Positions 12,238 through 28,918 of a stretch of DNA of 64,000 nt are shown one piece after another. The DNA lies in the NCBI RefSeq assembly GCF_031456835.1, contig NZ_JAVDVK010000001.1, positions 1,612,001-1,676,000 of the forward strand, in the 5' to 3' direction. Within the stretch, counting starts at the first letter, position 1. Each line of letters opens with the position of its first letter. The notes under the pieces were generated by a model. The model was not told where the DNA came from and made no database searches. It saw nothing but the letters and a program-made list of their open reading frames with translations. A program made the position numbers and the translations under genes. The stretch comes from Leifsonia shinshuensis (GTDB lineage Bacteria; Actinomycetota; Actinomycetes; Actinomycetales; Microbacteriaceae).

Positions 12238-12338
12238 TGTCTCAAGTCATCGGTGACAGTTCTGCCTCAGGACATCGGTGACAGTTCATGTCTCAGGACA
12301 TCGGTAACAGTTCATGTCTCAGGACATCGGTGACAGTT
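12238..12338. repeat. Tandem copies of the IS terminal repeat
   Basis: Four copies of TGTCTCAGGACATCGGTGACAGTT-type sequence start at about 12238, 12263, 12289 and 12315 (25-26-base spacing). Two or three degenerate copies lie at the right end (13959-14028). They are probably multiple transposase-binding sites. Confidence 0.8.
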
Positions 12339-13560
12339 AGCGGATTGTGCGTGGGCCACGGGGTCCGCGGGGGTTGCCGCTGCCGACGTACTTGGTCCCC
12401 GGCTCAGGCCAAACGTATTCGGCCAACAGGGTGCCGTGGGCGTCGAAGATCAGGAGCCGGTGGTCTTCCTCGAGCCGATAGGCGATCTGGCCGGCGAGGG
12501 TGCGGCTGACTTGGAACTTGGTGCCGCGAGCATAGACGGTGCCGTTGGCCTGGATCCGCGTCTCCCACGGGCCCTCCTTCTCCCCGATCGGCGCCGCCGG
12601 TTGAGCAGGCGGACGAGGAGGTTCGACCACCGGTGTCGCCGCCCACGCCAGCGCCGGAGTCACCCGACCAGGCAATCCTTGGTGCGGGCGTTCCCTGTTA
12701 TAGATCAGATCGAATGTGTCGACTTGGGCCTGGAGCTGCTCGAGCGTCTCAGCTAACGGTTGCTTGTCCAGCCATCGGAACAGCGTTTGATGGAAGCGCT
12801 CGTTTTTGCCCTGCGTGGTCGGCTTATAGGGTTTCCCGGTGATCGGCTCGACCCCGAGCGATCGCAGATAGGCGACCAGCTGCCCCAGGATCCCCCGCCG
12901 GGATGGGTTCAACGCCAACCCGTTGTCGGAGAGCAGCCGTCGCGGAACACCGTGAGCTGCGATGCCTTTGCTGACCACGGCGATCGCGCCCTCGGAGGTC
13001 TCGCCCCAGGAGATATGGGAGGCGATGGCGAGCCGGGAGTGGTCGTCGATGAGCTGGAAGATCACGCATTTGCGGCCTCCGGTGAGCACGTATTCGGTTG
13101 CGTCCAGCTGCCAGCACGCGTTTGGCGCCGGATAGACGAACCGTCGGAACGCCGCCCGCGGCTTCTTCCTCGGCTCCAGCCGGGCAACACCCGCATCGCG
13201 GAAGATCCGCGCCAGCGACGAGACCGCCGGCACTGGGTCCATCCCCAGCGCCCGCATCTTCTCGTGAACACTAATCGGACCGTGATCCAGCCCGGAGGCC
13301 TCCAACGCCGCGCGGACGGCGACTGCCCGAGCCTTCACCTCATCTGACAGTCTGTTCGGGCTCGCCGCCGGTCGACGAGTCCGCGGCTCAAGGGCGGCAG
13401 CCTGCCCCTCCAGCAGCGCTCTCTTCCGGATCGCATAGAACGTTTTCCGCGCGATCCCGTGTTCCATACAAAACGTCGTCACCGCTCCCCGCGGCGCATC
13501 ATCAGGCCACTGGACAATCGCGAGACGGACACGAGGATCAACCGGATCAACAGCGCTCAT
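12337..13560 (-). CDS. IS481 family transposase
   Basis: A 407-residue transposase. The N-terminal helix-turn-helix region (about 20-130) is followed by an rve integrase core with the DDE triad Asp153 (WQLDATEY), Asp212 (LLSDNG) and Glu254 (QGKNERFHQTL). A C-terminal Mu-type domain carries GTKFQVSRTLAGQIAYR. The frame is intact, and with good inverted repeats the element may still be mobile. The TAA stop lies inside the innermost terminal repeat copy. Confidence 0.93.
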   Translation of the reverse strand: MSAVDPVDPRVRLAIVQWPDDAPRGAVTTFCMEHGIARKTFYAIRKRALLEGQAAALEPRTRRPAASPNRLSDEVKARAVAVRAALEASGLDHGPISVHEKMRALGMDPVPAVSSLARIFRDAGVARLEPRKKPRAAFRRFVYPAPNACWQLDATEYVLTGGRKCVIFQLIDDHSRLAIASHISWGETSEGAIAVVSKGIAAHGVPRRLLSDNGLALNPSRRGILGQLVAYLRSLGVEPITGKPYKPTTQGKNERFHQTLFRWLDKQPLAETLEQLQAQVDTFDLIYNRERPHQGLPGRVTPALAWAATPVVEPPRPPAQPAAPIGEKEGPWETRIQANGTVYARGTKFQVSRTLAGQIAYRLEEDHRLLIFDAHGTLLAEYVWPEPGTKYVGSGNPRGPRGPRTIR

Positions 13561-14143: not shown

Positions 14144-14620
14144 TTACGGTCTTTGGACGCCCGCTGGCCAAACCACGACCACCCTCTTGCCAGCAGCCCG
14201 GGCGAATGCGACGGCGTCTGCGGTGCCTCCCTTACCTCTCGCTGGTTCTCCATCCCAAACCGCGAACATGATGTCACAGTGGGCGGCGATCCTTTTGCCA
14301 GCTGCCTCATAGGCCGCCTCGCTCGGCTCGTCGAAGTCAAGTCGCTCGATGCCTTCTGCCGCTGCTAGCAATCGGCGATAGTTCTTTAGCCCGGCATCAT
14401 CGAACGTTGTCTCGTAATTTCGGCTCGGGACTACTGCTCGCAATGCCCCGCCCAGTTGGAGAGTCAATTCTGCGAAAATCTGATCGGCGCCCTCAGCAAG
14501 GCTGGAATACCCCACAAGCGGCCTAGTTACGGCGCTCAGTTCCTGCTGAAGGTGCCGTTCAACATACGCGTGTACTGAGGCGCTCAGGCTTTGATGTCCG
14601 GTGAACCCGACCCTAGTCAT
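14144..14620 (-). CDS. SLOG (LSDAT/DprA-like) nucleotide-binding domain protein, third gene of TIR-caspase operon
   Basis: A 158-residue single-domain protein. TRVGFTGHQ opens a Rossmann-like fold, followed by YSSLAEGADQIFAELTLQLGG, VVPSRNYETTF, the acidic segment DFDEPSEAAYEAAGKRI and the signature FAVWDGEPARGKGGTADAVAFAR, ending VVVVWP. These are marks of the SLOG superfamily, whose members bind nucleotide-derived ligands (for example the ThsA SLOG domain). ATG at 14620 overlaps the caspase stop as ATGA, so the two are translationally coupled. Role inferred: sensor of, or carrier for, the TIR product. Confidence 0.75.
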   Translation of the reverse strand: MTRVGFTGHQSLSASVHAYVERHLQQELSAVTRPLVGYSSLAEGADQIFAELTLQLGGALRAVVPSRNYETTFDDAGLKNYRRLLAAAEGIERLDFDEPSEAAYEAAGKRIAAHCDIMFAVWDGEPARGKGGTADAVAFARAAGKRVVVVWPAGVQRP

Positions 14621-15576
14621 ATCCGCCCTGAGACCACGAGTTCGCGATAATGCTTGCCGAGCGCTGTCAGCCGGCACGACTTGCGATTCATGGCCGCATA
14701 GTACATGTGCTCCTCGCCGACCGGTTCTACGAGTCGACATGCCCTCAGCTTCTGCAAGCCCGAGAACACCGCCTCGTGTTCTTTGTCCTCTGGCTGCGCG
14801 TCAGGTTCGTACGAGGGGTCGAGAGGAAACTCATGATCGGCAGTTGGAAACCATGAATCGAGTTGCCTAAGGATGCCCAGGGGCACTCGCGGATCGCAGA
14901 TTCTAATGTCATGGAGCCGATCGATGTTCGCTTTGAAGGTTGGGCGCTGTTCCCACGCGCCAAAGGACTCCGATAAGTATGAGTAAAGTCCTGCGACGTT
15001 GACGTGGCCGAGGGTGTCGCAGGCTCCGGCTTGCAGACCAGCTTCAAGATAGGTGGAGAATTGGCCGCGCCCGTGTTCGGTCTCCATTGAGACCTGGTCG
15101 CTGCGACTGGCGGTCAGGATGGCTAGCCCGCTTCGCAGGTGGGCGAGATCTCTGTCCAGCGCAGCAATCGTCGCCGCGCCGCCGGAGAAACAGCAGTCGA
15201 GAACGACCGCAACCTCCTTCGCGCCGCTCGAGTTTATCCGCGTGAGGAGTTCGCCGAACGCAACCCCAGGTGTTGTCGGAGTTCCGTCGGTGGTCACCAG
15301 GGCAACATCACCGTTCACGGGGGCTCCGTGCCCCGCGAAGTAGAGAAGCGCAAAGTCTGGACTCGCCCTCAGCAACTCGTCAACACTCTCGAGAAGTTGA
15401 TCCCTTGTAATAGGGGCGGTGGCATCGCGAGACACGAGCAGGCGGCACTCCAGGTTGGGGCTGTCGTCCTCGTTCCTGGCAAGCAGTGGGTACAGCGCCT
15501 CGGCATCGTTGGCACACCCGCCGAGGTCGTTGAAATTCGTGTAATGATCGACACCGACGAGGAGCGCGCGCTTCAC
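14617..15576 (-). CDS. Caspase-family peptidase (metacaspase-like, peptidase C14), second gene of TIR-caspase operon
   Basis: A 319-residue protein. The caspase domain is at about 1-235: RALLVGVDHY, the catalytic His83 in LLYFAGHG and the catalytic Cys129 in VVLDCCFSGGA. The C-terminal part holds PLDPSYEP (about residues 255-262) and a compact winged-helix-like segment (EHEAVFSGLQKLRACRLVEP ... MYYAAM ... LTALGKHYRELV). No transmembrane segment is visible. Start chosen: GTG at 15576, exactly where the caspase fold begins and 7 bases after the TIR gene stop; the upstream reading runs antisense to nothing useful and lies within the TIR gene. The family cleaves proteins after basic residues; in bacteria caspases serve as defence effectors. 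Confidence 0.85.
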   Translation of the reverse strand: MKRALLVGVDHYTNFNDLGGCANDAEALYPLLARNEDDSPNLECRLLVSRDATAPITRDQLLESVDELLRASPDFALLYFAGHGAPVNGDVALVTTDGTPTTPGVAFGELLTRINSSGAKEVAVVLDCCFSGGAATIAALDRDLAHLRSGLAILTASRSDQVSMETEHGRGQFSTYLEAGLQAGACDTLGHVNVAGLYSYLSESFGAWEQRPTFKANIDRLHDIRICDPRVPLGILRQLDSWFPTADHEFPLDPSYEPDAQPEDKEHEAVFSGLQKLRACRLVEPVGEEHMYYAAMNRKSCRLTALGKHYRELVVSGRI

Positions 15577-15583
15577 AGCAGGC

Positions 15584-15958
15584 TCACAACCCGTCAATAA
15601 ATGCGGCGACGTTGTCCCAGGTCCAGTCTTTGCATGGAGCTGTGCCCATGGCAGCCGGCTTGACACGGTACCCGGTCTGAATCCAGATGCCGAGCACGGG
15701 CTTACCTTCTTCGACCGCGCATTGGATCTCCCAGAGCTGCCCAGTTGCCCTCGGAGTGTTGCCACTAATCAGAGCGATCACTCCATCCGAGCGACGAATC
15801 CGCGTGCGAACCTTCGACTTCCATTCGGAAGAATAGGGCTCCTTCACGGACATGTCCGTGAATTCGAAGGGGGTGCCCGGATGGACTCGTTGTCCGGTAA
15901 ACAGGTTTCGCGTGCTCTCATCTTCTTTCGCGAAAGCGATGAACACGATCTTCGACAT
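15584..15958 (-). CDS. TIR-like (DUF1863/ThsB-like) protein, first gene of TIR-caspase operon
   Basis: A 124-residue protein made of one TIR-like domain: KIVFIAFAKEDESTRNL, FTDMSVKEPYSSEWKSKVRTRIRRSDGVIALIS, then GQLWEIQCAVEEGKPVLGIWI. Glu77 in the LWEI motif is at the position of the catalytic Glu of NAD-cleaving TIRs. This matches the MTH538/ThsB family, whose members in Thoeris make cyclic-ADP-ribose-type signals. The family assignment is seen; enzyme activity is inferred. It is promoter-proximal, with caspase and SLOG genes following at 7 and -4 bases. Confidence 0.85.
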   Translation of the reverse strand: MSKIVFIAFAKEDESTRNLFTGQRVHPGTPFEFTDMSVKEPYSSEWKSKVRTRIRRSDGVIALISGNTPRATGQLWEIQCAVEEGKPVLGIWIQTGYRVKPAAMGTAPCKDWTWDNVAAFIDGL

Positions 15959-16512: not shown

Positions 16513-17514
16513 TTATTCAACCTTGAACGGGCCGGCGAGTCGATCATTTAGGTTTGTCCCGTGAAGCAATGGCTCAGCCTCCGTGTATTTGAGCCGGTTG
16601 ATTAGGTCCTCACGACTACCCCAACTGCCGTCGAGTGTGACCCAGTTAAATCCCTCGATGTCCGATGGCATACGAAGACTGCTATCGGAGGACACGAAGA
16701 TGGTGTTGTTCGGCGACGTCGCGTAAGCCATTCCGGCCTCGAAGATGACGTTCTGTCGTGCCTGGCCCATGACTTGGGTTGCGGGGTCACCCGGACCTTT
16801 GCCGAGGTCGGCCTTAAGTTGCGCCTCATCATCTGCTGACCAAATGACGATGGTCGCTCCCGCAGAGTCGATCCCGGCCTTGACGATTTCGTAGGTGTGC
16901 GGTTGAGGCTTTCCCGTCAGATGGGCGGCGTCCTGCCAACTGATTACGGTCAATCCGGCGAAGTGGAGGAATTGTTCAAGTGCTACAAACGGTCGCGTGT
17001 CGCGGCCACGGACGAGGAAGACTTTCTTGGGGTCGCGTGTCATCACTTTCTCCGGGGTTGGTGTTTGCCTAGCTGGCTGTGTCCAAATAACCACCGATTC
17101 CGATGATGGATTCGCGGTAGTCGGGGCGGACCATGGTGGCGGAACATCAGAAGTGGATGAAGGTATTGGCTCGGGGGGCCGCTTGTTGTCGACGAAGAAC
17201 CCGGACTCGGAAAAGTGGACCCCCCGCCGATCAAGGGTCCGTTTGAGTTGCCTGAACTCTCTCGACCCGCGGAGCCGATCGGCGTTCTCTGCTTGCACAT
17301 ACGTCGAGTCGAGGAAGCGAAATATCAACTCGTCAGTGTCGCGATGCGCAAACCATGCGTTCACGATGCGCGTGGCTCGTATGGACTTGTTGTCCGCGCT
17401 TGGCCTAAGTTCCATTCCCGCCTCAAGGCGACCGAGGGTACCGCCCGTGTTGCTCGCTTCGAGTGCTTCGATGATCGACGGCTTGTCGAGCGGCTGGAAA
17501 ACGGTTGATGCCAT
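16513..17514 (-). CDS. Two-domain protein with C-terminal TIR-like (CAP12/PCTIR, PF10137-type) domain
   Basis: A 333-residue protein. The C-terminal domain (163-298) carries KKVFLVRGRDTRPFVALEQFL, ATIVIWSADDEAQL, the family hallmark GQARQNVIFEAGMAYA with putative catalytic Glu259, and PSDIEGFNWV. These are features of TIR-like NADase effectors of CBASS/Pycsar. The N-terminal domain (1-110) is unfamiliar: mixed, charged, with ATRIVNAWFAHRDTDELIFRFLDSTY. A Pro/Ser-rich linker (112-160) joins them. No cyclase gene is present, so the N-domain may be the trigger sensor. It is in the same direction as the other defence genes. Confidence 0.8.
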   Translation of the reverse strand: MASTVFQPLDKPSIIEALEASNTGGTLGRLEAGMELRPSADNKSIRATRIVNAWFAHRDTDELIFRFLDSTYVQAENADRLRGSREFRQLKRTLDRRGVHFSESGFFVDNKRPPEPIPSSTSDVPPPWSAPTTANPSSESVVIWTQPARQTPTPEKVMTRDPKKVFLVRGRDTRPFVALEQFLHFAGLTVISWQDAAHLTGKPQPHTYEIVKAGIDSAGATIVIWSADDEAQLKADLGKGPGDPATQVMGQARQNVIFEAGMAYATSPNNTIFVSSDSSLRMPSDIEGFNWVTLDGSWGSREDLINRLKYTEAEPLLHGTNLNDRLAGPFKVE

Positions 17515-18640: not shown

Positions 18641-21600
18641 TTAATGAGGCGTTCGAGCGAGTCCAACGAATCGTTCGAAGAACTTGCCGAGTCTCTCAAT
18701 CACGCGCTGCTTCTTCTCGACGTGGCCGCCATCCGCCGCAAAACGTGACGCAGGCGGAAGCACCTTCGTAATCGCAGTGCCTGTCGTGCGGAGCACTCCA
18801 TCGCGGAAGGCAGTTTCGATGAAGACACGCGTGGCGTCGCTCCGGAGCCCCTCGTCCTCGATGATCGCCTCAAGCTCCGCCTCCCGCTTGGCTGCAACGA
18901 ACGCCTGCCACTCTTGGTCAATGGCACCGTCGACTGAGACGGAGTCGACGAAGGCTTCGATCAGGTCCTTCTTGTTGCGCAAAGTCGGGCTGGCATCAAC
19001 GGCGCGAGAGATTTCCGCGCGGATCTCCTTGTCATCGCCATCGCCATACTGTGAGCGATACTTCTGGACGAGTATCAGGATGTAATCGACATTAATCTCG
19101 ACCTGTTTGATCAGCTCGATCTCGAAGACGATGTCGTCGTTGATGAGTTCCTTGTCGGCGTTCTTGTCCTTGCGGAACTCGGCGTAGAGGTCGAGGTAGA
19201 TGCTGCGGTAATCCTGGCTTTGGCGCTCGGTCAGGATTTCGTGGCCGGCGAAGTCATCGAATGAGGTGAGGATGTTCTGAAGTCGTAGGATCTGGCCGAA
19301 GAGCTGGATGAACGCTTTTTGCGCGGTCTCCCCGATTATCTGCTCCCCCAGCGGGAAGAAGGTCAGGAGCTTGCCGACTTTGCCGGCGTAGTCGGTGTAG
19401 TAATCGGCGTATGGCTTGAGCAGGACGACGCCGCGGGCGTCTTTATTGCCGAAGAGTTCCAGCGCGACGTTAGTCTGCTCTTCGAGGTCGCGGAAAGCGA
19501 CGATGTTGCCGTAGGTCTTAACTGAGTTGAGGATGCGGTTGGTACGCGAGTACGCCTGGATCAGGCCGTGTGCGCGGAGGTTCTTGTCGACGAAGAGCGT
19601 GTTGAGGGTCGTTGCGTCGAAACCCGTAAGGAACATGTTGACCACGATCACAAGGTCCAGTTCACGGTTCTTCAGCCGTTGCGAGAGGTCCTTGTAGTAG
19701 TTCTGGAACTTGTCCGCACTTGTGTCGTAGCTCGTGCCGAAGATGGCGTTGTAGTCCTGGATCGCGTCTTCCAGGAAGCCGCGCGCATCTGCCGAAAGCG
19801 CGTCGGTGTCGAATGCTTCGTCATCCAGGATTCCGTCATCTGTCGCCTCGTTGGCACCGTATGAGTAGATGAGGCCGATCTTGAGGCGGCGTTCTGCAGG
19901 GAGCGGCTCCTGCTGGACTTGGAAGTGGTTGTAGTACCGGCGAGCTGCTTCGATGCTGGCGGTCGCGAAAATTGCGTTGAAGCCGCGGACTCGCTGCCTT
20001 TCCCGTATCGCCTCGACCTGTCGACGTGCCCGAGTCGATTCGACCACGTTAGTGACGACAGAGTGCTCGTAGGCGGAGGAACGCTTGGTCTTCTGATCAA
20101 AGTGCTGCAGCGTGTACTGGACGATCTGGCTGATCCGTTCCGGTGCAAGCAGTGCCTTCTCGGTATCAATTGCCGACACTTGCTTGTCATCGACCGCGCC
20201 CACCTTGACTGTATTGACGTAATCAATGCGGAACGGCAACACGTTCTTGTCAGTGATCGCGTCGACGATCGTGTAAGTGTGCAGCCTGTCACCGAAGGCC
20301 TGCTCGGTCGTCCTCAACAGCGGGTTACCGCTGGTGCCTGAGTTCGCAGCGAAGATCGGCGTACCCGTGAACCCGAAAAGGTTGTAACGCTTAAACGCTT
20401 TCGTGATGTCGCTGTGCATGTCGCCGAACTGCGAGCGGTGGCACTCATCGAAAATCAGGACGACGTGGCCCGAGTAGATCTCGTGGCCCTTGTTACCGGC
20501 TACGAAGTTAGACAGCTTCTGAATTGTCGTGATGATGATCCGCGCGCCCGGATCCTCTAGCTGCTTCTTCAGCACCGCCGTTGACGTGTTCGAGTTCGCG
20601 GCGCCCTTTTGGAAGCGGTCGTATTCGCGCATCGTCTGGTAGTCGAGGTCTTTGCGGTCCACTACGAACAGCACTTTGGCCACGCTCGGAATCTGAGAAG
20701 CTAGCTGCGCTGTCTTGAAGCTCGTGAGCGTCTTCCCGGAGCCAGTTGTGTGCCACACATACCCGCCCGCTTTGACTGTCCCCAGTTGCTTGTAGTTGGT
20801 TGACGTCTGGATGCGTTGAAGGATCCGTTCGGTCGCGACGATCTGATACGGGCGCATCACCAAGAGAAGGCGGTCGACAGTCATCACGCAATACTGGGTG
20901 AGGACGTTGAGGAGGGTGTGCTTCGCGAAGAAAGTCCCGGCAAACGATGCGAGGTCGCGGATAGGCTGATTGTTAGCGTCCGCCCACCATGACGTGAACT
21001 CGAATGAGTTCGACGTCTTCTTGCCCTTACCAGGCTTCTGCGCCTCCTTGATGTGCTGGAATCGGGTGGTGTTGGAGTAGTACTTGGTCAACGTTCCGTT
21101 GCTGATCACGAACAGCTGGACGTATTCGAACAGGCCAGATCCGGCCCAGAAGCTGTCGCGTTGGTACCGGTCGATCTGGTTGAACGCCTCGCGGATGTCG
21201 ACCCCGCGACGCTTCAGTTCGATGTGCACCATCGGCAGGCCATTGACCAGCACCGTTACGTCGTAACGATTCGCGAACTTCCCGCCCCCCTCGCCCTTAC
21301 CCACCTCGTACTGGTTGATGACCTGAAGGCGATTATTGTGGATGTTCCGCTTGTCGATCAGGGTGATGTTCTTCGTCGACCCGTCGTCGCGCTTCAGAAG
21401 CTGAACCGGGTCCTCCTGAATGCGGACCGTCTTCTCAACTATGCCGTCGTTCTTCCCCGCAAGCGCGTTCGTAAAGAACGTCTCCCACTCTGCGTCGGAG
21501 AACGTAAAGTGGTTCAGCGTTTCGAGCTGGGAGCGCAGGTTAGAAACGAGCTGCGCTTCGGAGGTGACGCGCAGATGCTCGTAAGCCTGCGATTCGAGGA

Positions 21601-21739
21601 GCTGGATGAATTCCTGCTCTAGTGAAGCCTCCGACTGATAGGCGGATGCGGGACTGGGCGCGGGCACGTGTTCCGTCACGACTGTCGACTCTGCAGAAAC
21701 CGCAATCGGGTCGTAGTGGGGCTGCAGCCTGTCGCTCAT
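18641..21739 (-). CDS. hsdR: Type I restriction enzyme R subunit
   Basis: A 1032-residue subunit. The N-terminal PD-(D/E)xK nuclease has RYDVTVLVNGLPMVHIELK with Asp160, Glu174 and Lys176. An SF2 motor follows: Walker A in WHTTGSGKTLTS (about 330-340), the DEAD-like box IFDECHRSQFG, motif III GFTGTPIF and the later helicase lobe with VVNMFLTGFDATTLNTLFVDKNL. The C-terminal helical domain contacts the methylase. ATG 21739 overlaps the hsdS stop (ATGA). All motifs are intact, so it should be active. Confidence 0.95.
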   Translation of the reverse strand: MSDRLQPHYDPIAVSAESTVVTEHVPAPSPASAYQSEASLEQEFIQLLESQAYEHLRVTSEAQLVSNLRSQLETLNHFTFSDAEWETFFTNALAGKNDGIVEKTVRIQEDPVQLLKRDDGSTKNITLIDKRNIHNNRLQVINQYEVGKGEGGGKFANRYDVTVLVNGLPMVHIELKRRGVDIREAFNQIDRYQRDSFWAGSGLFEYVQLFVISNGTLTKYYSNTTRFQHIKEAQKPGKGKKTSNSFEFTSWWADANNQPIRDLASFAGTFFAKHTLLNVLTQYCVMTVDRLLLVMRPYQIVATERILQRIQTSTNYKQLGTVKAGGYVWHTTGSGKTLTSFKTAQLASQIPSVAKVLFVVDRKDLDYQTMREYDRFQKGAANSNTSTAVLKKQLEDPGARIIITTIQKLSNFVAGNKGHEIYSGHVVLIFDECHRSQFGDMHSDITKAFKRYNLFGFTGTPIFAANSGTSGNPLLRTTEQAFGDRLHTYTIVDAITDKNVLPFRIDYVNTVKVGAVDDKQVSAIDTEKALLAPERISQIVQYTLQHFDQKTKRSSAYEHSVVTNVVESTRARRQVEAIRERQRVRGFNAIFATASIEAARRYYNHFQVQQEPLPAERRLKIGLIYSYGANEATDDGILDDEAFDTDALSADARGFLEDAIQDYNAIFGTSYDTSADKFQNYYKDLSQRLKNRELDLVIVVNMFLTGFDATTLNTLFVDKNLRAHGLIQAYSRTNRILNSVKTYGNIVAFRDLEEQTNVALELFGNKDARGVVLLKPYADYYTDYAGKVGKLLTFFPLGEQIIGETAQKAFIQLFGQILRLQNILTSFDDFAGHEILTERQSQDYRSIYLDLYAEFRKDKNADKELINDDIVFEIELIKQVEINVDYILILVQKYRSQYGDGDDKEIRAEISRAVDASPTLRNKKDLIEAFVDSVSVDGAIDQEWQAFVAAKREAELEAIIEDEGLRSDATRVFIETAFRDGVLRTTGTAITKVLPPASRFAADGGHVEKKQRVIERLGKFFERFVGLARTPH

Positions 21740-22935
21740 GTCATAGCTTCTTTGAAGGTAAGGAGCTTGTCACGGTAGTACTCATATTGCTTGCGGCGGG
21801 CAATGGCTTCGGCAGGAAGCCTGATGCTTAGGTCGTTGACGAGGGAGTCAAGTCTGTCGAGGATCTTCCCAACACGCACTTGCTCGTTGAGAGGCGGCGC
21901 AGCGGTCTGCAACTGGTTGAGCGTGGCGACAGCCAGCCCAGGCTGGGCTGATCTGGATGCGTACTGATTCAAGTTCATGCTCATGAGCGTGTGAAAAGCC
22001 CAACTGACATCGACACCTGGCTTCGGGGTGACGACCACGGAATGCTCAGTAGCATAGAACTCACCGCTTGTCCTTTTGACGTTTCCGCAAAGGGCGCCTT
22101 GGCGGCCAATCAGCACTCGATCTCCGCTCTGATTCGGAGTCGCAACATATCCTCGTAGTCCGCCTCCTCCGAAACATGGGATCGGGTGCTCGTCGTCCGG
22201 AGATGCGACGATGGCAGACGCTGCAATGAACTTTCCAGCGCGCAAGTCGAAGAGTTCATCAATGCGCGCAATACGTGCGCTAGCGATGTCGGCGGTAAGT
22301 AACTGGTTTCGGTAGTAGTCGTACTGACGGTGGCGCGCATTGAGCTCCGCTGCCAGCTCCGCTTCCAGCTTCACTTCCCGCTGAGTGAATTCGTCCAACA
22401 CCCTTGCAATCTCAAGCTGGACTTCGAGAGGCGGAAGTGGTACACGCACTTTCATGAACCGCGGCTTGGAAACGTTGATGCGCGTTACGCCACTTGCTGT
22501 TCGGCGGATCTGAGTCCTGACGGCGTCAGAACGAAAAAGGTACTTCGAGAATTCGGGCAACAGGAGCGACGGGTCAGCAAAACGGACGGCGAAACAGAAG
22601 CTGTTGAGGTAGAGCGGTCCTACGGGTTCGGTCGCTACAACCGACGACATGCCAACCTCATCGAGAGACTCAGACGACCCAGTGATTATGACGTCGCCCC
22701 GCTGGAGTCGATTCTGCTTCTCGCCGTCCCGAACCTTCACGAAGTCTTCGGCAAATTGATCCACCGAAAGATTTGCGAATGCGTTTTTATACGACACATA
22801 TCGAGCACTGCCTTCAGAGAAGTCAGACTTGCTCTTACCCGACAGTCCCGCCACCGTTATTGCAATGTCGCCAAGGGCCCGAAAGGCTACGCCACTTGGC
22901 ACGAGCTCGTCGATCATTTGGTCAACACGACTCAC
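21736..22935 (-). CDS. hsdS: Type I restriction-modification specificity subunit S
   Basis: A 399-residue protein with the usual two target-recognition domains (about 15-175 and 215-355). Each is followed by a conserved dimerisation helix: ARHRQYDYYRNQLLT (about 205-220) and ARRKQYEYYRDKLLTF near the C-terminus. The near-identity of the two helices marks the tandem repeat. The recognition sequence cannot be read off. The start overlaps the hsdM stop by four bases. Confidence 0.92.
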   Translation of the reverse strand: MSRVDQMIDELVPSGVAFRALGDIAITVAGLSGKSKSDFSEGSARYVSYKNAFANLSVDQFAEDFVKVRDGEKQNRLQRGDVIITGSSESLDEVGMSSVVATEPVGPLYLNSFCFAVRFADPSLLLPEFSKYLFRSDAVRTQIRRTASGVTRINVSKPRFMKVRVPLPPLEVQLEIARVLDEFTQREVKLEAELAAELNARHRQYDYYRNQLLTADIASARIARIDELFDLRAGKFIAASAIVASPDDEHPIPCFGGGGLRGYVATPNQSGDRVLIGRQGALCGNVKRTSGEFYATEHSVVVTPKPGVDVSWAFHTLMSMNLNQYASRSAQPGLAVATLNQLQTAAPPLNEQVRVGKILDRLDSLVNDLSIRLPAEAIARRKQYEYYRDKLLTFKEAMT

Positions 22936-24500
22936 TTCGGACCTTCCAAGTCAGCCACGATCTCGTCGATGGAAATTCTCAGTTCCGACTGCCGCGCGAC
23001 AATGCGCCCGATCTCTGCGTTCAGTGCCGTGATGTCGACAAACTCGCGGGTGTCCTCGTCCTCAACGTAAGAAGAAACGGCAATGTTGTAGTCATTGGCG
23101 GCGACGTCCTCGTTCGGCACGAGCTTCGCGAGATGATCTTTGTCGGCACGCTCAGCGAGCGCCAGAAGAATGTTCTCCTGGTTATCTGGCAAGAGCTTGT
23201 TCTTATTACCGACGCGCTTGAATTCGTCCGCGGCGTTGACGAACAGCACGCAATTGTCTGTCTTGGATTTCTTGAGCACGATGACGCAGGTCGCAATAGT
23301 GGTGCCGAAGAATAGGTCTGGCGGAAGCTGAATGACCGCATCGACGTAGTTGTTGTCGATGAGGTATTTGCGGATCTTCCGCTCGGTGCCCCCTCGGTAG
23401 AGCACGCCGGGGAACTCGACGATCGCGGCGGTGCCGGTGACAGCAAGCCAGCTCAGGATGTGCATCGTGAACGCCAGATCGGCCTTCGACTTAGGTGCGA
23501 GGACGCCGGCGGGCGCGAAGCGTTCGTCGTTGATCAGGAGCGGATTGGCATCGCCCTCCCACTTGATCGAGTAGGGCGGGTTGGACACGATCGCCTCGAA
23601 TGGTTCCTCGTCCCAGTGCTGAGGGTCGAGGAGGGTATCGCCGTGGGCGATGTCGAACTGCTCATAGTTGAGGTCGTGCAGGAACATATTGATCCGCGCC
23701 AGGTTGTACGTGGTCAGGTTGATCTCCTGGCCGTAGAACCCACCGACGTTTTCCCTGCCGAGTACCTTCGCAAACTTTAAGAGCAGGGAGCCTGAACCGC
23801 AGGCGGGGTCGTAGACCTTGTTCACCCGGGTCTTACCCATGACGGTAATTCGCGCGAGGAGTTCTGAGACCTCTTGGGGTGTGTAGTACTCGCCACCAGA
23901 CTTGCCGGCCTGGGATGCGTACATCTGCATCAGGTACTCGTACGCATCACCAAACAGGTCGATGGAGTGATCCTCGAAGTTTCCCAGTGGCAAGTCCCCA
24001 ACCGCATCAAGGAGCTTGACTAGCTTCTCGTTTCGTCGGGCGACGGTGTTGCCCAGCTTGGAGCTGTTCACGTCGAGGTCGTCGAACAGACCTTTCAGAT
24101 CGTTCTCGCTGTCCGTACCGACGGCTGAGCCTTCGACGTCTTTGAACACTCGCTCGAGCGTTTCGTTGAGATTAGTGTCGTGCGGTGCCCGGCTGCGCAC
24201 GTTCTGGAAGAGTTCAGAGGGCAGGATATAGAAGCCCTTCTCCGCCACCGTCACTGCGCGACCAAGCTCCGCCTCCGCATCCGAGAGGTCGGCGTAGTCG
24301 AAGCTGGAATCGCCGGCTTCGTGCTCGCCCTTGTTGATGTAGGCGGTGATGTTCTCGGAAATGAATCGGTAGAAGAGCATCCCGAGCACGTAGCTCTTGA
24401 AGTCCCACCCGTCGACGCTGCCACGCAGGTCGTTGGCGATCCGCCAGATCGTCTTGTGCAGCTCAGCGCGCTGGCCTTCGCGGGTGGTTGGCGTCATCAC
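22932..24500 (-). CDS. hsdM: Type I restriction-modification DNA methyltransferase subunit M
   Basis: A 522-residue N6-adenine methyltransferase. HsdM_N helical domain is at 5-150; the catalytic domain has motif I DPACGSGSLLLKFA and motif IV SNPPYSIKW, both intact. GTG at 24500 is followed directly by ATG at 24497; either could be the start. It is the first gene of the hsdM-hsdS-hsdR operon, whose genes overlap by 4 bp and are therefore coupled, giving methylation before restriction. Confidence 0.95.
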   Translation of the reverse strand: MMTPTTREGQRAELHKTIWRIANDLRGSVDGWDFKSYVLGMLFYRFISENITAYINKGEHEAGDSSFDYADLSDAEAELGRAVTVAEKGFYILPSELFQNVRSRAPHDTNLNETLERVFKDVEGSAVGTDSENDLKGLFDDLDVNSSKLGNTVARRNEKLVKLLDAVGDLPLGNFEDHSIDLFGDAYEYLMQMYASQAGKSGGEYYTPQEVSELLARITVMGKTRVNKVYDPACGSGSLLLKFAKVLGRENVGGFYGQEINLTTYNLARINMFLHDLNYEQFDIAHGDTLLDPQHWDEEPFEAIVSNPPYSIKWEGDANPLLINDERFAPAGVLAPKSKADLAFTMHILSWLAVTGTAAIVEFPGVLYRGGTERKIRKYLIDNNYVDAVIQLPPDLFFGTTIATCVIVLKKSKTDNCVLFVNAADEFKRVGNKNKLLPDNQENILLALAERADKDHLAKLVPNEDVAANDYNIAVSSYVEDEDTREFVDITALNAEIGRIVARQSELRISIDEIVADLEGPK

Positions 24501-26625: not shown

Positions 26626-27537
26626 ATGCACAGATCTACTGCTCGGTTCGAGCACCGCACGACCGATGGATCCACCATGCCTGAGCGACCGCCCGCCGAA
26701 GTCGAGCGCGCACACGAAACCCGGGCGGTTGAAGAAGCGTTGAAGTCTATGACCAACGCTCGAGTTGGTGCCGTCATAGCCCGCGGTGAAAGCGTTCTGG
26801 CAGCTGGCTACAAAGGCGAGATTGATGGTCTTCATGCCGAAGAGATTGCGCTCCACAAAGCCGCCGAACAGAACTTAGATGTGCGTGGAGCCGCGCTCTA
26901 CGTGACCCTGGAGCCGTGCGCGAACTCTCGCACGAGGCGGGTCCCGTGTGCAGAGCTGATCGCGTCTGCCGGTATCGCGGAGGCCTACATCGGGAACTAT
27001 GACCCCAATCCTCAGGTCTACCGCCTTGGATGGAAGTACCTCCGCGATCACGGGGTGAGACTGCGAGATTTTGCGCCGGACCTACGAGAGCGTGCCCGCG
27101 ACGCTGGAAGAGACTTCACAAAGTTCTTCACCGAGGGCTCCGGGATGAGCGCGGGCGCAAAGTTCGATTTCACCCAGAACGGAGGGCGCTTCACCATCTC
27201 CGTCGACTCGGCACAGGGCTCGCCTTCGTGGGAGACGCGGTGGTCGAACTGCGGAGCAAACGCCATCTATATGTACGGGGGAAGTCCTGGTGTGGTTGCT
27301 AACGCACGTTACGCAAATCGATTTGAAGAGATCGATGACCCGGACGCACTCGACTTCGGAAGCCATTCGCCGAAGATTGAAATTGGCTCTATCGGAGTGA
27401 TGCGTAACGAATATGGACACGTGCTTTGTAGGGTCATCGCGATCGAGCCGACCGCCGACTACGGCGGAACAGGGCACGTATCGGTGACCATCGAATGGGA
27501 AATACGACTGCGAGAGCCAGCACTGCCGATTCTATGA
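26626..27537 (+). CDS. Cytidine/deoxycytidylate deaminase-fold protein with unknown C-terminal domain
   Basis: A 303-residue protein. The zinc deaminase domain (about 30-150) has His70-Ala-Glu72 (HAEEIAL) and Pro97-Cys98 plus Cys108 (LEPCANSRTRRVPCAEL), then AYIGNYDPNPQV as in RibD-like enzymes. The C-terminal domain (about 175-303) is beta-rich, unfamiliar and lacks obvious catalytic residues. No riboflavin genes are near, so a ribD role is unlikely. The island location suggests defence (nucleotide depletion or nucleic-acid editing), which is inference. ATG 26677 is an alternative start. Confidence 0.7.
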   Translation: MHRSTARFEHRTTDGSTMPERPPAEVERAHETRAVEEALKSMTNARVGAVIARGESVLAAGYKGEIDGLHAEEIALHKAAEQNLDVRGAALYVTLEPCANSRTRRVPCAELIASAGIAEAYIGNYDPNPQVYRLGWKYLRDHGVRLRDFAPDLRERARDAGRDFTKFFTEGSGMSAGAKFDFTQNGGRFTISVDSAQGSPSWETRWSNCGANAIYMYGGSPGVVANARYANRFEEIDDPDALDFGSHSPKIEIGSIGVMRNEYGHVLCRVIAIEPTADYGGTGHVSVTIEWEIRLREPALPIL

Positions 27538-28015: not shown

Positions 28016-28525
28016 GTGCAGATCCCAGTCTTTGTCAGCGCTCCGACCAGCCTAAATCCCGAGCAGGAGGCCTCTCGCCAGCGCATCGTTGACCTGCTCG
28101 ACGAGTTTGGCTTTGAAGCGCGAGCGCTCGGCAGAGGTGACTATCCTCTCGACTACCCGTTGCGGGAGGTTGCAGTCATTGCTCGGTCTTGTTTTGGGGC
28201 CGTGATCCTTGGCTTTGAGCAGTTCAGGAGTTTGCACGGTGTCGTGAAGCCAGGAACAGATGTCGAGGCAACGACCACGGAGGTGAAGTCCTTTCCAACT
28301 CCGTGGAACCATCTCGAGGCTGGCATCCTGTTTGCGCTCCGCCGACCGCTACTTATTTTCCGGGAGGAAGGTTTGACCGGTGGTGTCTTCGACGCTGGTG
28401 TCACCGACGCATTTGTCCACCGCATGCCGTCGGGCGATACTTCGGTCGGGGACCCTCAGGAACTACGCAATCTGTTGCTTCGCTGGCAAGGCCGAGTTCG
28501 TGAGCTTTACTACGCGTTCGACTAA
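28016..28525 (+). CDS. Nucleoside deoxyribosyltransferase/TIR-like single-domain protein
   Basis: A 169-residue protein with a Rossmann-like fold: PVFVSAPTSLNPEQEASRQRIVDLLDEFGFEARALGR, CFGAVILGFEQF, then TPWNHLEAGILFALRRPLLIFREEGL with Glu101 placed like the catalytic Glu of deoxyribosyltransferase/TIR folds, and DAFVHRMP. The closest type is the nucleoside 2-deoxyribosyltransferase/TIR-like group; I cannot assign activity. GTG lies 6 bases after TAGGTT (28004-28009), a leaderless start. It is the last gene before attR. Confidence 0.65.
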   Translation: MQIPVFVSAPTSLNPEQEASRQRIVDLLDEFGFEARALGRGDYPLDYPLREVAVIARSCFGAVILGFEQFRSLHGVVKPGTDVEATTTEVKSFPTPWNHLEAGILFALRRPLLIFREEGLTGGVFDAGVTDAFVHRMPSGDTSVGDPQELRNLLLRWQGRVRELYYAFD

Positions 28526-28780: not shown

Positions 28781-28846
28781 CGCGAACAGGCGATTCCATG
28801 CCGTGAGAAACCCCCTCTGACCAGCATATTTGCTACACAACTAAAG

Positions 28847-28918
28847 TGCCCCTGGAGGGACTCGAACCCCCAACCGTTTCCTTAGGACGGAACTGCTCTT
28901 CCATTGAGCTACAGAGGC
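28847..28918 (-). tRNA. tRNA-Arg (CCT anticodon)
   Basis: A 72-base cloverleaf on the minus strand. The acceptor GCCTCTG pairs with CAGGGGC (one G-U), the D-arm is GCTC...GAGC, the anticodon loop GTCCTAA has CCT at its centre, and the T-arm is GGGGTTCGAGTCCCT. No CCA is encoded. Its 3' end points into the island and supplies the attR core. Confidence 0.93.
28852..28866. other. attR-like island end within tRNA-Arg
   Basis: CTGGAGGGACTCGAA covers the T-arm/acceptor part of the tRNA. The copy at 12064-12078 differs at one base. Integration here would restore the tRNA 3' end, the common rule for tyrosine-integrase islands. Confidence 0.7.

Follow-up and report, generated by a model that had tools for sequence, protein, structure and literature searches.

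We found that three adjacent genes of Leifsonia shinshuensis, encoding a TIR protein, a caspase-like protease and a protein with a predicted SLOG fold, form a conserved TIR-caspase-SLOG operon. A TIR and a caspase-like protease are reportedly the components of the type IV Thoeris system of Rousset et al. 2025. In the passages that describe this system, the TIR-caspase pairing is already published, and the addition here is the SLOG gene. From comparisons of sequences and predicted structures, we tentatively propose, giving it slightly less than an even chance, that the operon is a SLOG-bearing branch of type IV Thoeris, in which the SLOG would bind the signal and regulate the effector as its partner.

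The operon lies in the analyzed window, a stretch of 64,000 nucleotides (Table 1). The TIR and caspase genes are 7 bases apart and the caspase and SLOG genes -4 bases apart; these gaps, and the lengths of the three reading frames, reproduce the values in an earlier note on this DNA. The gene identities given there were also backed, by Pfam for the TIR and the caspase and by AlphaFold2 modeling and Foldseek for the SLOG, and the catalytic Glu77, His83 and Cys129 that it had named are invariant among the aligned relatives. With start codons picked by a script, the caspase and SLOG genes shared 4 bases or 1 base in 19 of 21 operons in which the SLOG gene lies 3' of the caspase gene on the same strand. 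Given that the same order also recurs in many genera, the three-gene arrangement is not a matter of chance.

Table 1. Features of the operon and its surroundings in the window
Feature	Position	Strand	Remarks
Integrase-core (rve) transposase	12337-13560	minus	~0.6 kb downstream of SLOG gene
SLOG-fold protein gene	14144-14620	minus	158 aa; start overlaps caspase stop by 4 bases
Caspase-like protease gene	14617-15576	minus	319 aa; GTG start; His83 and Cys129
TIR gene	15584-15958	minus	124 aa; ThsB-type; predicted catalytic Glu77, codon 15728-15730
P0004, CAP12/Pycsar-effector-kind TIR protein	16513-17514	minus	PF10137 E 1.2e-22; PADLOC PDC-S35; between operon and RM genes
Type I RM genes	18641-24500		~2.7 kb upstream of operon
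Deaminase-domain protein	26626-27537	plus	PF00383; weak PADLOC dCTPase match
169-aa ORF	28016-28525	plus	no Pfam, PADLOC or NCBIfam match
tRNA-Arg	28846-28918		after 169-aa ORF

The surroundings fit an acquired defense island, since a stretch of lower G+C from ~12 to 29 kb (about 56-67% per kb, against a window mean of 68% and 67-71% in the flanks) encloses the integrase-core transposase and the type I RM genes, together with a phage-integrase domain, and has the tRNA-Arg at its far end. The earlier note had set the operon next to the RM system; the RM genes do lie on the same island, at some distance from the operon. We considered P0004 as a fourth part of the operon and rejected it, because no relative was found at E <= 1e-4 in 38 compared loci. 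A duplicate of the tRNA-Arg end was likewise rejected as the other edge of the island, as no stretch of at least 14 bases was shared on the same strand within the window. The deaminase-domain gene is possibly a nucleotide-depletion defense gene. By eye, the 169-aa ORF showed a likeness to a nucleotide hydrolase or a TIR relative, and ARAGORN called a doubtful tRNA inside the transposase gene.

The window TIR matched the Pfam family PF08937 (ThsB_TIR) with 34.8 bits against a cut-off of 21.2, and gave weak ThsB matches in PADLOC and no match in NCBIfam. Glu77 was invariant in all 43 aligned TIRs, the alignment holding one best TIR for each caspase locus. These rows came from 43 of 53 caspase loci; the other 10 gave none that passed, yet in one of them (L205) a TIR gene is annotated. 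Pfam searches found no SIR2 match in any of the three window proteins, and PDB sequence searches with the single window proteins gave weak matches or none.

The window caspase scored 51 bits against PF00656 (Peptidase_C14; cut-off 21.4) in Pfam and was also matched by a PADLOC caspase model. His83 and Cys129 were invariant in a 17-row alignment, and the dyad was kept at 90% or more both in 21 SLOG-linked caspases and in 31 others. The AlphaFold2 model, built with 16 relatives, had a pLDDT of 90.7, and its best fold matches were MALT1 and other caspases. Its C-terminal region, about residues 216-319, is conserved among relatives. The earlier note had seen a winged-helix-like tail there, for which we obtained no support: the last 94 residues of the window row had no Pfam match, sequence searches of the PDB gave nothing below E 0.16, and one of 11 rows matched ANAPC10 in Pfam (E 0.038).

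We also compared the 21 SLOG-linked caspases with the 31 others, the former group excluding the Methylorubrum caspase (L036) and the latter including three rows in which the contig ends near the gene. The C-terminal invariants were equally kept in both groups. This argues against the idea that the SLOG merely stands in for a receptor that the caspase no longer has, and we rejected it. The SLOG-linked caspases differ from the others near the catalytic Cys and past strand 151-155 (Cys128, Phe130, Arg158). The Methylorubrum system has a SLOG, yet its caspase carries the SLOG-less-type residue at most of the group-specific positions; on this ground, these residues were rejected as a required SLOG interface.

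The window SLOG protein had no match in Pfam, PADLOC or NCBIfam, and a PDB sequence search with the SLOG profile gave nothing informative. Its AlphaFold2 model, built with 13 relatives, had a mean pLDDT of 93.1. In Foldseek, the model matched YpsA (2nx2, E 1.1e-8) as well as ShosA, DprA and LOG, and weakly the SLOG domain of BcThsA with 3'cADPR (E 1.5e-4, TM 0.49, rmsd 8.5); the profile additionally finds a YpsA-family protein in locus L084. By its predicted structure, the 158-aa protein is thus a member of the SLOG superfamily with a Rossmann-type fold.

If the earlier proposal is to hold, the three genes should stay together in other genomes, and such a conserved neighborhood was found, both in genome contigs and on plasmids. 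A TIR scan of genome contigs gave 17 loci, in 13 of which the TIR-caspase-SLOG order was kept. These 13 include Cryobacterium, Arthrobacter, Lentzea, Amycolatopsis (two), Ornithinimicrobium, Streptosporangium, Phycicoccus and Nocardia, and metagenome assemblies of Actinomycetota, Chloroflexota and Acidobacteriaceae. The other loci had a TIR and a caspase without a SLOG (L026, L028, L030), with the order caspase-TIR in L028, or a TIR alone (L029); the contig of L026 ends 355 bases past the caspase, so that the presence of a SLOG there cannot be judged.

Among 396 genomes of the phylum Actinomycetota, the caspase was found in seven (E <= 1e-20), and the TIR and the SLOG in 11 and 12, respectively (both E <= 1e-5). 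The SLOG adjoined the caspase in four of the seven (G000, G135, G237, G353). In G353, no TIR was recognized and one TGA lies inside the SLOG match, though an open frame spans most of the profile. Two genomes (G249, G316) had a caspase and a TIR without a SLOG, and in G388 the caspase was split into two ORFs and no SLOG was found. In the other eight of the 12 SLOG genomes, the SLOG lay away from the caspase. We also sampled the phyla of three further assemblies. Only one SLOG, in the three-gene order (L233), was present in 188 genomes of the phylum of a Sandaracinaceae assembly. The SLOG occurred in 13 of 297 genomes of the phylum of the Acidobacteriaceae assembly and in 12 of 201 of that of the Chloroflexota assembly, and within flanks of ~1.5 kb a caspase stood beside it in the starting genome only in each sample. 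Judging from these profile matches, the SLOG is common outside the TIR-caspase kind of operon.

Plasmid records contained the caspase in 43 cases and the SLOG in 40, with both (within 0.5 kb) in eight. The remaining 35 of the 43 caspase-bearing records had no SLOG match anywhere in the record; therefore, caspases of this family do not generally require a SLOG. TIR-caspase-SLOG was present in four Agrobacterium, two Rhizobium and one Bacillus subtilis record, that of pBS72, the order being read from the regions for one Agrobacterium, both Rhizobium and the B. subtilis record, and from coordinates for the other three. Methylorubrum keeps all three genes in the order SLOG-TIR-caspase. A strong caspase match was present on 20 viral contigs. 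One of them (L139) had an adjacent SLOG 28 bases away on the other strand, and another (L149) had a SLOG ~3.6 kb away; no strong caspase match was found among 43 viral loci detected with the SLOG. We also noticed five loci in which another TIR gene of a different kind occupies or shares the third position, behind the caspase (TIR_2 in L036 and L038; an annotated TIR in L085, L199 and L200).

Next, we examined how the presence of the SLOG is distributed on a caspase tree of 53 rows, many of which came from searches seeded with the window TIR, so that near relatives are favored; the plasmid and viral caspase searches made no use of the SLOG. Loci repeating others were omitted from the trees and tables (L001-L013, L039-L058, L087, L088; from the caspase list also L061, L089, L090), and L137 was dropped because its caspase is identical to that of L136. 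A SLOG was present in 22 rows and absent in 28, and in three the contig ended near the gene. Only two changes of SLOG presence were needed among the 50 labeled rows, against a mean of 16.5 with shuffled labels, which places the SLOG on one side of a deep division of the caspase tree. All 21 rows sampled on that side have a SLOG close to the caspase. The exception to the division is Methylorubrum, whose caspase sits among the SLOG-less ones while its SLOG leads the operon; this suggests that it gained the SLOG separately. Elsewhere, gain and loss are indistinguishable because the tree is unrooted. The end branches of four rows are long (L068, L067, L134, L027).

We then compared the SLOG residues, using all 101 distinct SLOG matches at E <= 1e-10, and defined as linked those beside this caspase or beside a TIR recognized by the ThsB-type profile. 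Gln10, in the presumed nucleotide-binding loop, was found in 25 of 25 linked SLOGs and in three of 76 others, seven of which have a gap at this position; the neighbors of the others were scanned with the ThsB-type profile only, other kinds of TIR being outside the definition. The linked SLOGs include that of a TIR-8xMP-SLOG operon (L037) and that of L067, classed through its caspase, no TIR being recognized beside it. Glu101 occurred in 24 of the 25 against six of the 76, and Asp135 in all 25 against 23 of the 76. All three non-linked Gln10 SLOGs, from two genomes of the Chloroflexota sample (L221 and L231 in one, L224), are fused to a NUDIX domain, which by eye resembles ADP-ribose pyrophosphatases. 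Gln10 does not mark every TIR neighbor, since the L083 SLOG has Arg at this position, though another kind of TIR-domain protein is annotated downstream. The catalytic motif of LOG-type phosphoribohydrolases is PGGxGTxxE; the linked SLOGs instead have GGT-x-D-x-V, and the residue three past Thr133 is Ala, Val, Ile or Thr.

In a SLOG tree of 69 rows (E < 1e-12 and good coverage), the caspase-linked rows needed five changes, few of them on firm branches. In a tree of 47 rows, taken from an earlier signature set of 52 rows grouped by hand minus L228, L213, L217, L065 and L082, the linked rows needed three changes, and a single clade was not rejected (p-AU 0.391). The signature should therefore not be read as repeated independent evolution, and it may represent one inherited SLOG subfamily.

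The TIR and SLOG families also have other partners. Membrane proteins of the 8xMP family lie beside SLOG relatives in L037, L079, L220 and L232, where PF24838 scored above its cut-off, and our own 8xMP profile adds L222 and L228. In 10 loci, SLOG relatives carry C-terminal regions in which a hydropathy script predicts membrane segments; SLATT or DUF4231 scored above cut-off in L083 only, and below it in L063 and L211. The TIR-8xMP-SLOG operon is found on a Novosphingobium plasmid, and TIR-8xMP pairs without their own SLOG occur in L024 (4529-5428), L073, L074 and L203 (6708-7585). Given that TIR-caspase and TIR-8xMP each occur with and without the SLOG, two kinds of effector would pair with this TIR family, TIR-8xMP apparently being another TIR-effector pairing.

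Type IV Thoeris reportedly has a two-gene make-up and is not known to include a SLOG. Going by what is known of the family, the TIR would convert NAD+ into an ADP-ribose-type cyclic messenger upon infection (N7-cADPR in the published type IV), and this messenger would activate the caspase-like protease, so that cell proteins would be degraded and phage growth aborted. The new part would be that the separate SLOG binds the same messenger in its Rossmann-type pocket, with the strand-1 loop Gly8-His9-Gln10 tuned to it, and regulates the effector, most likely as a co-receptor that helps to switch the protease on, or alternatively by limiting the signal. We counted towards this reading the conserved gene order and overlap, the few changes of SLOG presence on the caspase tree, Gln10 in all linked SLOGs, the nucleotide binders among the fold matches, weakly including the ThsA SLOG with 3'cADPR, and the SLOG relatives fused to membrane-segment regions or lying beside 8xMP. 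Because the C-terminal invariants of the caspase are the same with and without the SLOG, the messenger probably activates the caspase directly in the SLOG-bearing branch too, and the SLOG would be an addition, most simply at the signal step. These unchanged invariants also speak against the proposed reading, as do the caspase plasmids without a SLOG, the TIR-8xMP pairs without one of their own and the frequency of the SLOG outside this kind of operon. The Arg of the L083 SLOG, and a signature that may go back to one subfamily, count against it too.

Another role at the signal step, which we consider somewhat unlikely, is that of a brake: the SLOG would hydrolyze or soak up the TIR-made messenger, providing a threshold against a leaky TIR and later clearance of the signal, much as ring nucleases clear CRISPR signals. 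The same kind of SLOG accompanies two unrelated effectors, the caspase and, in L037, 8xMP, and since both pairs also occur without it, the shared element would be the signal. The NUDIX fusions of the sole other Gln10 SLOGs fit signal breakdown at least as well as sensing, and Asp135, invariant in the linked SLOGs, could be catalytic. In the passages of PMC9503650 considered here, SLOGs are described as cADPR sensors or as cleavers of the 1'-ribosyl bond, such cutting being proposed for cADPR-type signals. However, the LOG-type motif is absent, including a Glu three past Thr133, and the SLOG-effector fusions and 8xMP-SLOG pairs without a nearby ThsB-type TIR resemble sensors rather than clearance enzymes. 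A wider and more speculative version, which we regard as unlikely, is that Gln10 SLOGs form an exchangeable module dedicated to the control of TIR-made immune signals: as host-encoded proteins, they would bind and probably break down cADPR-type messengers. They would then do for TIR signals what ring nucleases do for CRISPR signals, being built into TIR-caspase and TIR-membrane-protein systems and joined to NUDIX elsewhere, and bacteria would encode their own off-switch for Thoeris-like signaling.

It seems improbable that the SLOG is a second signal enzyme which remodels the TIR product, so that the messenger of this branch would differ from N7-cADPR. The deep split marked by the SLOG and the caspase differences at Cys128, Phe130 and Arg158 would agree with this, and other SLOGs act on adenine nucleotides, according to the same passages of PMC9503650. 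However, the C-terminal invariants shared with SLOG-less systems suggest one ligand, and Methylorubrum combines a SLOG with SLOG-less-type residues at most of the differing positions. Even less probable, and in our view very much so, is an ordinary type IV Thoeris with a passenger SLOG that has no role in the caspase response. SLOGs of this family do occur with no TIR or caspase match nearby, as in Streptomyces plasmid regions and at every one of the 43 viral loci that the SLOG scan detected. Such a passenger would hardly be expected near the caspase in every row of the SLOG side, with the genes mostly overlapping, and retained where order or strand has changed.

The reading that we prefer, in which the SLOG is a signal-binding regulatory partner, can be set against several known systems. 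The EACC1-associated caspases, known here from passages of Kaur et al. 2020 (PMC7159879), have a related caspase domain (NF047832, E 9.2e-28). We rejected an EACC1 system because the window caspase scored 97.2 bits against an NCBIfam cut-off of 140 bits and its upstream neighbor is the TIR without an NCBIfam match. Another Pfam family, PF18178, is named as 'TIR- and PNP-associating SLOG' in PMC10952713; the window SLOG did not match it in the Pfam search. The SLOG-SLATT-type fusions and SLOG-8xMP pairs are similar in that a related SLOG lies beside, or is fused to, a likely effector, but they mostly have Arg at position 10, and no ThsB-type TIR was found nearby by profile except in L037. Like type I Thoeris (ThsB with the SIR2-SLOG protein ThsA), the operon combines TIR signaling with a SLOG module for which an ADPR-type ligand is predicted; unlike it, the SLOG is a separate protein only weakly similar to that of ThsA, and the effector is a protease, not a SIR2. 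We found no description of a TIR-caspase-SLOG operon in the titles and abstract openings searched or in passages of PMC12847820, PMC13373217, PMC7159879, PMC9503650, PMC11204291 and PMC10952713; Rousset et al. 2025 and Burroughs et al. 2015, known by citation, may mention it.

The closest relative is type IV Thoeris. According to the passages considered of PMC12847820, its caspase-like protease responds to N7-cADPR made by the TIR, which activates it; the system is also named in a passage of PMC13373217. As in that system, a ThsB-type TIR and a caspase-like protease with intact catalytic residues in both share one operon; in contrast to it, as it is known here through descriptions in other papers, a third gene with a SLOG fold is present. 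The earlier note had proposed a new type of system, but the TIR-caspase core has the make-up of type IV Thoeris as published in those passages, and with its third gene overlapping the caspase gene the operon is filed as a variant of this type. The TIR-8xMP operons point towards a further TIR-effector pairing, and the Gln10 signature offers a sequence handle for finding such systems. Type IV Thoeris ties TIR signaling to caspase-like proteolysis, both of which are hallmarks of cell death in animals and plants; a third subunit that is stably present on one side of the caspase tree, and also with a membrane protein, would be a new kind of TIR-signal receptor or a host-encoded regulator.
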